Source: Ignavibacteriota bacterium
Lineage (GTDB): Bacteria; Bacteroidota; Ignavibacteria; Tepidaquicellales; Tepidaquicellaceae
Assembly (NCBI GenBank): GCA_016218085.1
Contig: JACREY010000011.1
Coordinates: 124,001 to 188,000, forward strand
DNA: 64,000 bases
Direction: 5' to 3'
Every line of letters starts with the position of its first letter. Position 1 is the stretch's first letter. Shown in pieces: positions 41,022 to 46,441 of the stretch. Below the pieces are notes generated by a model. That model searched no databases. It was not told the DNA's origin and saw only the letters and a program-made list of their open reading frames with translations. The translations under genes were made by a program, and so were the position numbers.

Positions 41022-41804
41022 TTTGTAAAGTTTATCCGCCACGGCGGATGCAAAGAGCGCATAAAGTTTATAAAGTAAGAGCGGCAATCGTGAATAGTCA
41101 ATCGTGAATAAAAGAGCGAAGAGCTTTTCACCACTAAGGCACTAAGGGCACAAAGTTTTTTTAATGTTAAGAGCGAAGAGCAAAATATTTTGAACGCACC
41201 CGCCACGGCGGGCGTAAAGAACACGGATTACGCTCCCGCCACGGCGGACTCAAAGAACGAGGATTGGTTATGGTAATCGCTGTTTTTTTGAGGGTTAAGA
41301 GCGGAAACCCCGAAGGGGTGAGAGTATTATAGAAAATAGAAACAAAAAAAACAAAACCCCGAAGGGGTGATATATTTATAACATTGTTTTCTGCCCCGGA
41401 GGGGCAGTATATTTATAGCACCGTGAGTTTCCCTTTATCCACCGCTCCGGAGGTCAACGACCCGCCGTGGCGGGAGCGGAATATTTCAAAGAACAAAATT
41501 AAGTTCATAAAGTTTATCCGCCACGGCGGATGCAAAGAACGCATAAAGTAAGAACAAAGAGCGTGAATCGTCAATCGGCAATCGTGAATAGAAGAGCAAT
41601 GAGCGTGAATCGGCATTAATAAATTAAGGAACGACAGCATTAACAAGCTCGTGAATTATTTTAATTATTTTAAAGAACTAGTGTTTAGTTTCATTACTAA
41701 ATCTTAAAAACATTAATTAAAAAATCCCAATAATAAATAACTGTTTTTTGTATACATCACTTTTGAGCAACGTTTTCGTGTTGCAGTACGTAGCAGTTTT
41801 GTTT
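41022..41804. repeat. Repeat-dense intergenic block at the left edge of the SIR2-HerA island
   Basis: Holds five GGCGG palindromes of one family (41035-41048, 41199-41212, 41235-41248, 41461-41474, 41517-41530), most followed by CAAAGARCG or TAAAGAAC. It also holds three short CCCCGAAGGGG or CCCCGGAGGGG palindromes (about 41309, 41358 and 41394) with TATATTTATA spacers, and repeated phrases such as AATCGTGAATAGAAGAGC. No open frame here looks protein-coding. The block probably marks a recombination-prone boundary. Confidence 0.8.
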
Positions 41805-42347
41805 TCATACATTTTTATCCTCTGTTTTTTCAATAGTTTTTACGGGTGTTTCTTCTTCGGTCGTGTTTTCATTTCCGGAAACGGGGAAAACGCCGCTATC
41901 CGCATCATGATTTGATTCGGGTTCGATATTATCCCTGAAGTTTATTCCCACTTTCAGCAGGTCAATTTCGCAGATGGAAATCATATCAGAAAGTTTTATA
42001 TAGAGACTAAGCGCATCTCCGTAGGGATTTGAAAACCCATTTGAATCCAGTTTGGCATTTTCCATTTTTTCCGCAATTCTTTTCAGTTCTTTTTTCAGGA
42101 AGTCCAGGCGTTCGGTTTTGGAGTCAATAATTTTCTGCTGGAGGTCGCAGAAGACTTTATTGCGGAGTTCGAGCAGTTCCTTTGAAAACTTTTTATTCCA
42201 GTCGCAGACCGTACGGGAGGACATTTTCAGCTTGCGTGCGATTTCGCGGACAGAGGAGCCCGAGGAGCGAAGGGTGAGGAATTTGCATTCGATGTCTGAG
42301 AGCTTCGATGCAGTCCCGGGTGATATGTTTGGTATTCTATAATCCAT
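41805..42347 (-). CDS. Helix-turn-helix protein of unknown function
   Basis: Residues 15-55 hold a resolvase/terminase-like HTH (LTLRSSGSSVREIARKLKMS then SRTVCDWNKKF). A long charged helix (about 55-95, LQQKIIDSKTERLDFLKKEL) looks like a coiled coil, and an acidic low-complexity tail follows (GNENTTEEETPVKT). The architecture resembles small-terminase or transposase-accessory DNA binders, so a mobile-element origin is plausible. It lies 103 bp downstream of the HEPN-like gene with its own sigma70-like promoter and a good ribosome site (AAAGGA), so it is probably not part of that operon. Confidence 0.65.
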   Translation of the reverse strand: MDYRIPNISPGTASKLSDIECKFLTLRSSGSSVREIARKLKMSSRTVCDWNKKFSKELLELRNKVFCDLQQKIIDSKTERLDFLKKELKRIAEKMENAKLDSNGFSNPYGDALSLYIKLSDMISICEIDLLKVGINFRDNIEPESNHDADSGVFPVSGNENTTEEETPVKTIEKTEDKNV

Positions 42348-42449: not shown

Positions 42450-43316
42450 CTATGTTTTTCTAATGTTAATTTTTGCTCCAGTGATCTTTGAAATCATTTC
42501 GTAAGGAAACCAAGTTATTTCCATATTAATTTTCTCCTCAATTATATCAGAGCAAATTAAACTTGGGGCACCCCTTTGCTCGGTTACTTCTAAAAGTAAA
42601 GAAAGTAATTTGTTCCCATATTCAATGTGTTTTGAATAATTAGGAGCATTTATTTTTGTATTTAATTTTTCTAAAAGTTCGAATTTTTCATCAATTAGCG
42701 GAACAATATCAAAAGTTTCTTCTTTTTTGTTAAGATCCTCAGTAACCTTTTCACCCCAAGAGTCATATTTTGAAGTTAGATCATCGCGAACAAGAAAAAT
42801 AGTTAACGTACAAATTGTTTTTCCTTTGTCACCCGCTTCTGAGTTTATTTTTAGGGAACCCGACGGAAGACCACAATGTTGAGAAAAATTACGAAGTTTA
42901 TAAAGAAAACGATAAGAGAAATAATTATCATAAGCTTCCCCCGTCTCTTTTTTAAAAAGCAATATCTCATCGGATTTAGCACCGAATTCTCGTTTAAATC
43001 TTGTTTCTGTATGGTCTAAATAAGTTCTAACCGAAGAAAGAAAATTTAATATTAATCTATTTAAATCTAGAAACAAAAACTCGAATTCGGAAAAATCCGC
43101 AGTTGGGTTATCAATAAATTTATCTAAATAATTTTTAACAGTTGATTTAAATTCCCTGTAATTTAATTCTACAAGCCTGAATAATTTTTCGTCAGAAGAA
43201 AGTTTGTTTAGCTTTTTTACGTGTTCAATACATTGATTATAATTTTCTTCGTTAAATTCGCGAACCATTGAAACACTTGTGTTGTCTATGGTCGCAAGAA
43301 AAAAAGTTTTGGGCAT
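42450..43316 (-). CDS. HEPN-like protein of unknown function in the SIR2-HerA operon
   Basis: 288 residues, mostly helical, no signal peptide or membrane segment. The stretch FLYKLRNFSQHCGLP (R142 to H147) contains R-N-x-x-x-H, the R-x4-H signature of HEPN ribonucleases, in the expected setting of a long helix ending a helical bundle (LFLDLNRLILNFLSSVRTYL upstream). HEPN domains in defence loci cleave RNA on activation; that activity here is inference. The gene follows the KTSC gene by 53 bp on the same strand and shares the AT-rich composition of the SIR2-HerA pair. If the motif is not catalytic, the protein is simply an unknown helical partner. Confidence 0.55.
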   Translation of the reverse strand: MPKTFFLATIDNTSVSMVREFNEENYNQCIEHVKKLNKLSSDEKLFRLVELNYREFKSTVKNYLDKFIDNPTADFSEFEFLFLDLNRLILNFLSSVRTYLDHTETRFKREFGAKSDEILLFKKETGEAYDNYFSYRFLYKLRNFSQHCGLPSGSLKINSEAGDKGKTICTLTIFLVRDDLTSKYDSWGEKVTEDLNKKEETFDIVPLIDEKFELLEKLNTKINAPNYSKHIEYGNKLLSLLLEVTEQRGAPSLICSDIIEEKINMEITWFPYEMISKITGAKINIRKT

Positions 43317-43369
43317 TTAATTTAATTTAAGTTAAGTTAATAAAGGTTTAAAGATAAATAGACTTTTAT

Positions 43370-43621
43370 TTATTTATATTGTTGAAATTGATATCCAGCT
43401 TTTTTAACTAGTTTATCTAATGTTGCCCCATATGACGGCACTCCTTTACTTTTACTGATACATTCTTTATTTAAAATTCTTTGGAAAATTTCAACCGGGA
43501 CGTTCAGATATTTGTAACCCGAGCCCCCTTTAAATTCTACAAATAAATCATTTTCTGAGTGCGCAATTCTTTCTATACTTCCTGAATCAGCGCCAATTTC
43601 TTGCCACTCTATATTTTGCAT
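43370..43621 (-). CDS. KTSC-domain small protein
   Basis: I start at ATG 43621 (MQNIEWQEIGADSGSIERIA), preceded by a GGAG ribosome site; longer frames run into the HerA gene. The 83 residues match the KTSC domain: S-I-E-x-I, DLFVEFKGGSGYKYLNVPVE, then a late SKG and a Tyr-rich end. The KTSC domain is named from the C-terminus of some lysyl-tRNA synthetases and also occurs alone in bacteria; its function is unknown. It starts 13 bp after the HerA stop, so it belongs to the SIR2-HerA operon. Confidence 0.78.
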   Translation of the reverse strand: MQNIEWQEIGADSGSIERIAHSENDLFVEFKGGSGYKYLNVPVEIFQRILNKECISKSKGVPSYGATLDKLVKKAGYQFQQYK

Positions 43622-43634
43622 TTTTACTCCTTTT

Positions 43635-45398
43635 TTATTTTTGCATCCATCTCTCGATGGTATTTTTATAGTCAAATTTGCTATTTCTTTTTTCTTTCCA
43701 AACCCCGATTCTCTTATCAAAATTAATGTTTTTAACTGATTCTAATAAAGGAATTTTAACTTTCATTGGAATTTTCATTGATTCACCAATTACAAAGGCA
43801 TCTCCATTTCCCAGGGATGGAAGAGATTTTAAAAACATTGAAAAGTTATTGGGGGCAAATTTAATAATTATTCCTTGATCATCACTATTTGTCAATCTTA
43901 GCGCAATAAATGTACTAACCTGTGAAATAATAGTATTAGGAATTTCAACCGGTCTTTGTGAAATAATCATCGCACCTATTCCAAATTTCCTACCTTCTTT
44001 CATTATTCGTTCAACAGCTTTCTGAGAAAAACTATCTTTGGTATTTGAATTTAAATATTTATGTGCTTCTTCATAACAAATTAAAATGGGTCTCCCTTCA
44101 AAAGGTTTGTTTACTTTTAATGAGTAATATATTATATCAAATAATAGATTTGATAAGATACCAATTACAACATCAAGAATATTGTATGGTATACCTCCTA
44201 AATTTAAAATCGTAATTTGCTTTTCATTTTCTATCCACTTTGAAATCAATTCCTCAATATTCTTTGTTCCTTTTATGTATTCATCTTCTCCAAACATAAA
44301 TCTAAAATCATCACTTTTAATAATGTTTAATATATTGTCTGCGATACTTCGAAAATAAGTTTCGTTTGATTTATAAGGGGCTGTTCTATCGGTTGTATAA
44401 GGTTTAAATTGCGGTTTCTCCAATTTTTCGGCATTTCCTTTCAATTCTATCCCTTTTTTATCTGTTTCAAAGGCATAATTTTTGGGTTCCCTTTCGGCAG
44501 AGACAGTAAAAGTACCATAACCCCTACTATGAAATTCCAACCAAATATCTTTGATGTCAAATGGAATAGGGGAATTTATGTTAATATCATTTATTTTGAT
44601 TTTTTCTTTTAACTCGCTTCTCCCTGACACATAATTTTTTTTTATTTGAAGTATTCTATCATGAAATACATCTGTAGCAGTTGACATAACATTTCCCGAT
44701 GGTAATCCAAATAATTTACAGAGAGTGTCAAAATCAAGCATCCAATATGGAATAATCAGTTTGTTTGTTTCGTTATAAACGGAAAATTCTTTTGCCTCAT
44801 TTTTTAAGTAATTCATATATTCACCATGTATATCAATAATTATTGTTCTTGAGCTTGGATACTCTGTAACAATGTTAGAGAGAAGATATGCAACCGTATT
44901 TGATTTTCCACTCCCGGTGCTACCGACTACGAACGAGTGCTTTAAAACAAAATCATTTAAATTAATATATACGGGCAGTTCATTCGAAAAATAATTCGTA
45001 CCGATTTTTATTGGGAATTTTACGGCTGATTTGAAAATAATATTTATGTCATCTTCGTCAATTATATAAGCAGAATCATCAATGCTCGGAGTAATTTTTG
45101 CTCCGTTTTCGAATTCACCGGTAACTGCCCTGTATCCAAGTAGTGAAACGTTTATAATCTTTTTGTCTACAACAATTTCACCAGAATATAGAAAGGTCGA
45201 AAAAGATTCTACAACCCCATATAAACACGATAATCCATTAATTATTTTTATGAAACTACCAACCTGACCAATTCTGTATAAATTACCATTATGAATTATG
45301 TTGTAATTACTAATATCTTTACTAACTTCAATAATTATTCGTTCTGAATTTACCTCTATAACTTGTCCTATTTTTCCATTTTTTGATTCTTGTTTCAT
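43635..45398 (-). CDS. herA: HerA-type hexameric ATPase (defence-type)
   Basis: Residues 8-100 form a HAS-barrel-like N-terminal module (IGQVIEVNSERIIIEV). The RecA-like core has the Walker A G159-S-T-G-S-G-K-S-N167, a Walker-B-like strand (RTIIIDIHGEY), a second acidic strand (ILICYEEAHKYLN), and the HerA signature ISQRPVEIPNTIISQVSTFI. HerA ATPases are DNA-translocating hexamers; next to SIR2 they assemble into antiphage complexes that degrade NAD. The start overlaps the SIR2 stop by 1 bp (TAATG), a strong coupling sign. Confidence 0.9.
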   Translation of the reverse strand: MKQESKNGKIGQVIEVNSERIIIEVSKDISNYNIIHNGNLYRIGQVGSFIKIINGLSCLYGVVESFSTFLYSGEIVVDKKIINVSLLGYRAVTGEFENGAKITPSIDDSAYIIDEDDINIIFKSAVKFPIKIGTNYFSNELPVYINLNDFVLKHSFVVGSTGSGKSNTVAYLLSNIVTEYPSSRTIIIDIHGEYMNYLKNEAKEFSVYNETNKLIIPYWMLDFDTLCKLFGLPSGNVMSTATDVFHDRILQIKKNYVSGRSELKEKIKINDININSPIPFDIKDIWLEFHSRGYGTFTVSAEREPKNYAFETDKKGIELKGNAEKLEKPQFKPYTTDRTAPYKSNETYFRSIADNILNIIKSDDFRFMFGEDEYIKGTKNIEELISKWIENEKQITILNLGGIPYNILDVVIGILSNLLFDIIYYSLKVNKPFEGRPILICYEEAHKYLNSNTKDSFSQKAVERIMKEGRKFGIGAMIISQRPVEIPNTIISQVSTFIALRLTNSDDQGIIIKFAPNNFSMFLKSLPSLGNGDAFVIGESMKIPMKVKIPLLESVKNINFDKRIGVWKEKRNSKFDYKNTIERWMQK

Positions 45399-46441
45399 TA
45401 TTTTTCCTTTTCGGTTTCAATTATCGTTTCTAGTGGCTTTTGATTAACAAGTAAATCTAAAATTGTCACAAAATTATTAAAATCTCCAATATTTTTATCA
45501 AACGTAAACTCACTTTCTGCTTTATTTATATATTTCTTTTTTTCGGTGTAAATTGAAATATTTGGATACAAGCCAAATATTTCAATAACTCTTTTAAAAG
45601 TATCTATGCTATATGTAAATGTAAGTACTGTCAATCTAGTATTATTGTTTAATCCATTAATAATTATATCGTTTACATGATCATCGTTAAAAGAATATCC
45701 CAAAATAAGAAGAACTTTTTCGTTTTCTAATAAGTACTTTCTGAAACGGTCCAAATAAGATATAAAGGGGGCTTTTCTGGAGGACAAATATTTATCCATG
45801 GAGGGATAAACTAATAAATTCTCAAATTCATTATTAACATTGTTTTCGATAAATATTTTTTCATCTTTAGATTTTTTGAAATTTAAAGAACCATGTAATT
45901 TCCATAATTTTACCCAACTCTGCTTAACGTACAATCCTTTAAAATCGTCTACAGAATCAGATATAAAAAACGGCTTTAAGTTCCCAACAAAACCCGAAAA
46001 ATAAGGTAAGTTTACTTTCTCTAATGCTTTTTCCAGTAGCAAATCATAATTTAATGAAAATATTTCTTTTTCGAATTCTCGGTTAATAAAATTTAGCCAG
46101 ATTACTAAATTACATAATTTATCAAAAACTACATCAGTTGAAAGTTTTCCAAAAATTGTTTTTTTTATGCTTTTTTCAAATTCTATTATTTCTTTTTCTT
46201 TCAGATTATTAAATTCTTTATCTTTACTAATTAATGATTTTAATTGTTGCACTTTATTTAATATATCTTCAATATTATCATCATCACTTAATAAATCAGT
46301 GAAGTTTTTATTCTTTAAAACTTTTAGAACTTCTTTTGTTAAATCGTCAACGTTTGGTAGTCCACACGCTTTTGATACACCCGCCCCAATTAATAAACCA
46401 ACCTGTTTTGGGGTTGCTAAAATTTCTAATAAATTTTCCAT
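45398..46441 (-). CDS. SIR2-family NADase-type protein of a SIR2-HerA system
   Basis: The Rossmann-like opening LLIGAGVSKACGLPNVDDL (GAG at 19-21) is the NAD-binding signature of SIR2, and H183 in LWKLHGSLNF is the catalytic-type histidine. A C-terminal VLLILGYSFNDDHVNDII is the usual SIR2-like DNA-defence signature of NAD handling. At 347 aa there is little beyond the SIR2 domain. In known SIR2-HerA systems this subunit hydrolyses NAD when phage is sensed, killing or arresting the cell. It is the first gene of a four-gene run and is markedly AT-rich. Confidence 0.88.
   Translation of the reverse strand: MENLLEILATPKQVGLLIGAGVSKACGLPNVDDLTKEVLKVLKNKNFTDLLSDDDNIEDILNKVQQLKSLISKDKEFNNLKEKEIIEFEKSIKKTIFGKLSTDVVFDKLCNLVIWLNFINREFEKEIFSLNYDLLLEKALEKVNLPYFSGFVGNLKPFFISDSVDDFKGLYVKQSWVKLWKLHGSLNFKKSKDEKIFIENNVNNEFENLLVYPSMDKYLSSRKAPFISYLDRFRKYLLENEKVLLILGYSFNDDHVNDIIINGLNNNTRLTVLTFTYSIDTFKRVIEIFGLYPNISIYTEKKKYINKAESEFTFDKNIGDFNNFVTILDLLVNQKPLETIIETEKEK

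Follow-up and report, generated by a model that had tools for sequence, protein, structure and literature searches.

The locus at positions 42450-46441 of a 64,000-nucleotide stretch of an Ignavibacteriota genome (contig JACREY010000011.1; the whole stretch is referred to as the window) is very likely, as judged from its sequence, a horizontally acquired antiphage operon of a KTSC-bearing clade of SIR2-HerA systems. The KTSC gene is strongly supported as a true third core component of this one large clade, in which it is near-universal, and a fourth, HEPN-like gene is placed by its distribution outside the conserved core, as an accessory gene. The block and its genes are as follows:

42450-46441, no strand assigned: foreign four-gene block, delimited by a step in base composition and by an empty site in relatives
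45398-46441, minus strand: SIR2-like protein, predicted NADase effector, 347 residues; GAGVS NAD-binding motif at 19, N131 (NYD), H183 (HGS)
43635-45398, minus strand: HerA-type DUF87 translocase ATPase, 587 residues; Walker A at 159-166 (K165), EEAH at 443
43370-43621, minus strand: small KTSC-domain protein, 83 residues; probable third member of the core in SIR2-HerA systems of the KTSC type
42450-43316, minus strand: HEPN-like protein, 288 residues; R142-x4-H147, accessory, conservation not shared with the core

The foreign block and its SIR2-HerA pair

The order, strand, coordinates and spacing of the four open reading frames (ORFs) agree with the initial annotation of the window. The SIR2 and HerA ORFs overlap by 1 nucleotide (TAATG), HerA and KTSC are separated by 13 nucleotides containing AGGAG, and KTSC and the HEPN-like gene by 53 nucleotides, in which no terminator-like site was found on the minus strand. 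The start of KTSC was placed at 43621, a longer TTG-started ORF being a mechanical extension only; the 83-residue form has the same length as the KTSC proteins of the two closest relatives.

The strong AT-richness noted initially was also borne out. The GC content and the GC content at third codon positions (GC3) are 0.255 and 0.20 for SIR2, 0.296 and 0.22 for HerA, 0.329 and 0.23 for KTSC and 0.301 and 0.23 for the HEPN-like gene (overall 25.5-33% GC), against 0.43-0.48 and 0.48-0.58 for the flanking genes, which encode a helix-turn-helix (HTH) protein, a lipocalin, a 703-residue protein, an S8 peptidase and Der. Because the step in both measures coincides exactly with the outer gene borders, the foreign block consists of exactly these four genes. 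In a congener (G416, locus L148) and a member of the same family (G415, L153), the gene for the 703-residue protein and that for the S8 peptidase lie approximately 0.8-1.0 kb apart with none of the four genes between them, and the insertion is therefore absent from these relatives. The block is of foreign origin and was acquired horizontally.

SIR2 was matched by Pfam SIR2_2 (2.5e-14) and PADLOC SIR2 (1.4e-85), and HerA by Pfam DUF87 and HerA_C and by PADLOC HerA (5.7e-130). The catalytic residues N131 and H183 are invariant when aligned with a Nezha-type SIR2 protein. In a HerA alignment, K165 of the Walker A motif and EEAH are conserved. The best PDB matches (8w9l_A for SIR2, 6.8e-40; 8wiv, chain 8wiv_A, for HerA, 4.2e-93) belong to one complex (8wld, 8woc, 8wod, 8wof), which we take to be from Paenibacillus. 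The window proteins score far below the NCBIfam equivalog cut-offs SIR2_antiphage (62.9 against 500 bits) and HerA_antiphage (144-258 against 800-850 bits). The locus has the sequence features expected of SIR2-HerA defence (Nezha, broadly understood), namely a SIR2 with catalytic asparagine and histidine and an adjacent HerA with Walker motifs. The retained catalytic motifs and the match of both proteins to a solved SIR2-HerA complex thus support the defence identity proposed initially.

KTSC as a third component

The third protein was recognised by Pfam KTSC (1.3e-6), is the sole KTSC in its genome and is 75-80% identical to the equally placed KTSC proteins of the two closest systems. Genome contigs were scanned with a HerA profile, yielding 80 related loci as the best matches. 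In 75 of these KTSC is the next gene downstream of HerA, and in four (L080, L115, L119 and L120) HerA itself carries it as a C-terminal fusion; in the remaining locus (L046) the contig ends inside HerA. KTSC, split or fused, is therefore present in 79 of the 79 determinable loci, a figure that describes the KTSC clade rather than all SIR2-HerA systems, because the profile was built mostly from KTSC-type HerA sequences. SIR2 precedes HerA wherever the contig of a locus reaches that far, and publicly annotated Citrobacter and E. coli plasmids carry the same SIR2-HerA-KTSC order. The KTSC type is defined here by a KTSC that either follows HerA immediately or is joined to it as a C-terminal fusion, and the window locus belongs to this type.

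Provirus contigs give a wider picture of SIR2-HerA than the profile-picked set. They hold 12 SIR2-HerA loci with KTSC, some of them near-copies, all with HerA scores in the clade of the window, and one further locus of this clade that runs off its contig end; KTSC is absent from 33 more distant SIR2-HerA loci in the same contigs. It is also absent from the seven DUF4297-type or other HerA loci and the two Nezha-type loci examined. In a HerA tree built with a quick method, all KTSC-bearing HerA proteins are grouped on the same side of a branch that has a Shimodaira-Hasegawa-like approximate likelihood ratio test (SH-aLRT) value of 97, and the fusion of KTSC to HerA arose four independent times. 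Pairwise distances of KTSC and HerA are correlated, with a Mantel r of 0.615 that was not reached in any of 2000 permutations.

The initial annotation had read both KTSC and the HEPN-like protein as extra parts of a SIR2-HerA system and had named their occurrence beside SIR2-HerA in this genome only as an outcome that would speak against this. For KTSC this is not so: it is a constant third gene or fused domain and hence not special to the window locus, and with linkage to HerA in all determinable loci a chance neighbourhood was rejected. A domain specific to defence was likewise rejected for KTSC, only part of the best-scoring KTSC loci in Bacteroidota being linked to HerA and the others encoding other KTSC proteins; in a sample of 395 Bacteroidota genomes, a KTSC is present in 74, in many cases unlinked to HerA.

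The HEPN-like gene and the slot after KTSC

In a seven-row alignment of the HEPN-like protein with its relatives, N91, D101, L141, R142, Q146 and H147 are invariant. R142-x4-H147 constitutes the HEPN signature (Rx4-6H) and is located on a helix (residues 133-148) of an AlphaFold model that is helical for the most part and was computed from a five-row alignment (predicted local distance difference test score, pLDDT, 82; predicted template modelling score, pTM, 0.77); prediction from the single sequence gave a pLDDT of 36. In a fold comparison with 973 aligned chains the six best matches were HEPN toxins (Z 8.3-8.8), a fold match that by itself is suggestive because these exceed de novo designed helical bundles, which reach 7.9, only slightly. 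With Foldseek alone the fold of the model had no significant match, and Pfam gave none for the protein, which falls in a family of unknown function, phrog_30874 (6e-21). By analogy with HEPN biochemistry in general, it is probably a metal-independent RNase.

Relatives were found in five other genomes of the 395-genome sample and on Bacillus subtilis plasmids of the pBS32 type. Those inspected adjoin an OLD-like ATPase gene (L009), a PFIN-domain gene (L012, where a SIR2 gene of PADLOC type PDC-S25 lies nearby) or other genes, and none is beside HerA. No relative was found in genome or viral contigs with the HEPN-like protein as sole query, nor in phage records by tblastn. At L009 (4640-9462) the relative lies 19 nucleotides downstream of the OLD-like ATPase gene and near a QatA-like KAP NTPase gene, possibly forming a separate HEPN-containing defence operon.

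Lutibacter citreus (HerA 79% identical) and a Bacteroidales metagenome-assembled genome (HerA 78%) carry the closest complete systems, both of which consist of SIR2-HerA-KTSC and lack the HEPN-like gene; the third close relative, L046, ends before the slot after KTSC. The gene is also absent from every other SIR2-HerA locus examined in the 80-locus and provirus sets. Its presence beside SIR2-HerA in this genome only is thus what was found, and a standing as a conserved part of the system is unsupported. The Lutibacter citreus system is itself situated in a small defence island, between an Eco57I-type methylase gene before it and an antiphage dCTP-deaminase gene after it (L044: 7215-9227 and 631-3951).

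Elsewhere in the clade the slot after KTSC is filled by other genes. A family referred to here as X, of approximately 341-346 residues (alignment A5), follows KTSC directly, starting within a few nucleotides, in 17 of 68 testable loci. These belong to several well-separated HerA lineages, and at least eight changes are forced on the HerA tree. Family X recurs after KTSC in one provirus, and both of its full-length matches in the 395 Bacteroidota genomes adjoin HerA-KTSC. Comparison with Pfam, PADLOC, NCBIfam and the PDB yielded no meaningful match for it; its invariant GDI...IECK and glutamine residues look like a PD-(D/E)XK-like nuclease core. DUF2130 proteins, with a similar motif (AD...ESK), follow KTSC or overlap the start of SIR2 in some loci. 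One DUF2130 gene precedes a DUF4297-HerA pair (L135). Examples are:

L081, 7073-8098: family X, after KTSC
L035, 9628-10662: family X, after KTSC
L105, 7129-8160: family X, after KTSC (and 14 more loci)
L051, 5477-6742; L076, 6988-8256; L094, 2460-3773; L075, 2418-3719: DUF2130, after KTSC or at the SIR2 start

As a nuclease-like accessory gene is recurrent, the HEPN-like gene may be the version of the window locus. Its composition, matching that of the core genes, indicates that it arrived with the block, and this together with the recurrent filling of the slot makes an accessory role plausible, though unproven. The HEPN-like protein could be the second effector of a four-component complex, one trigger leading to both NAD+ loss and RNA cleavage, with the slot after KTSC serving as a general accessory-nuclease slot (HEPN here, X or DUF2130 elsewhere). 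The GC3 shared with the core, the short terminator-free distance from KTSC, the recurrence of family X across the HerA tree, its occurrence in a provirus, the placement of DUF2130 and the ECK- or ESK-like motifs of both families all point this way. The absence of the gene from the closest complete systems and from all other loci, and the association of its relatives with unrelated genes or, on pBS32, with none, nevertheless make this reading doubtful. The broader proposal that KTSC-type systems are modular dual-effector machines, in which a SIR2-HerA-KTSC core and an exchangeable nuclease slot share a trigger, is put forward as a tentative one.

We consider it somewhat probable that the HEPN-like gene is instead an independent antiviral or toxin gene that, as part of a small defence island, merely co-travelled with the cassette. 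Its Bacteroidota and Bacillus-plasmid relatives are never beside HerA, two adjoin other defence-type genes and no partner gene is conserved among them, although the common strand, close spacing, identical composition and clean borders of the block are less readily accommodated. That the four genes are silent or decaying cargo and serve no function today would agree with the block being AT-rich foreign DNA absent from the relatives checked, but is highly improbable given four intact ORFs, retained catalytic motifs and overlapping starts and stops.

Proposed mechanism, flanks and comparison with known systems

For the antiphage operon favoured here, a large complex of SIR2 and HerA would form, like those of the solved relatives. 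One KTSC per HerA may be positioned on the hexamer at its C-terminal face, a placement suggested by the four independent fusions and by the solved fused HerA, and could serve the motor as a subunit that binds nucleic acid or acts as a gate. Upon infection the HerA-KTSC motor would sense phage DNA or protein and switch on the SIR2 NADase, so that NAD+ would be exhausted and phage production would stop. The HEPN-like gene, probably encoding an RNase, would be an accessory in the downstream slot of the operon.

Several points weigh against this interpretation. A literature search found no experiment on the window system or on any split-KTSC system; among the open papers searched, SIR2, HerA and KTSC occur together in two only. 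The HerA trio to which the window protein belongs is deeply divergent from other KTSC-type HerA proteins (branch length 1.95), so that a mechanism can be carried over to it by analogy only. The KTSC protein of the window has also diverged and is longer, with a Pfam score of 28 at a cut-off of 25, and the role proposed for it above is putative. The method used for the HerA tree also left very long Nezha branches.

The initial annotation had the operon bounded by repeat blocks, which was not upheld: both lie beyond the host-like HTH and lipocalin genes, and the composition step is the real border. The block at 41.02-41.6 kb is a genuine set of intergenic repeats, a cluster of CCGCCACGGCGG and CCCCGAAGGGG at 41030-41640, of which the core recurs on another contig and CCGCCACGGCGG on contig C15; the stretch at 47.0-47.5 kb shares with it a single weak 31-nucleotide match. 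On these grounds the repeats were rejected as borders. Immediately downstream of the block, at 41805-42347 on the minus strand, lies the HTH gene, of host-like GC content, whose product resembles a terminase small subunit. A paralogue, 70% identical, on contig C3 also adjoins a large restriction-type gene (L156: 6541-7098 and 9012-11819), which hints at an insertion hot spot.

Descriptions and catalogues treat SIR2-HerA as a system of two genes, and the window KTSC protein is matched by no PADLOC model. The KTSC-type clade spans bacteria and archaea, from Lokiarchaeota to Bacillota. Should KTSC be an obligate third subunit, clones made without it may be incomplete, and its deletion would make phage sensing by the HerA motor testable. 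Recurrent nuclease-like fourth genes would provide an NAD-depleting system with a second effector.

Among known systems, the solved complex is the closest sequence match of both window SIR2 and window HerA; it differs in that KTSC is fused within its HerA (residues 628-696 of 8wiv) and is a separate gene in the window, where the HEPN-like fourth gene is also present. Nezha is a SIR2-HerA pair that depletes NAD+ and depends on HerA as well as on the active site of SIR2 (PMC11559045). Nezha of the E. coli (8j4u) and V. cholerae types shares the NADase-HerA pairing, the gene order and the catalytic motifs, whereas its loci consist of two genes with no KTSC gene or domain, and the window proteins match 8j4u weakly (SIR2 6e-9; HerA 1.4e-27). 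DUF4297-HerA is likewise a two-gene defence driven by HerA, in which a nuclease replaces SIR2 and KTSC is absent. The toxins of HEPN-MNT pairs (PDB 7ae2-7ae9), the top fold matches of the HEPN-like protein, have a like R-x4-H spacing (R102 and H107 in their entry titles), but Y109, two residues after the histidine, is a glycine in the window protein, and the neighbours of its gene are the KTSC and HTH genes, with no MNT antitoxin gene beside it. HerA-KTSC-endoDNase variants, mentioned in PMC9503650, resemble the window locus in coupling HerA with a KTSC gene; they differ from it in that the window carries a sirtuin and its extra gene is HEPN-like. A sirtuin and a nuclease-like gene do co-occur in other KTSC-type loci.

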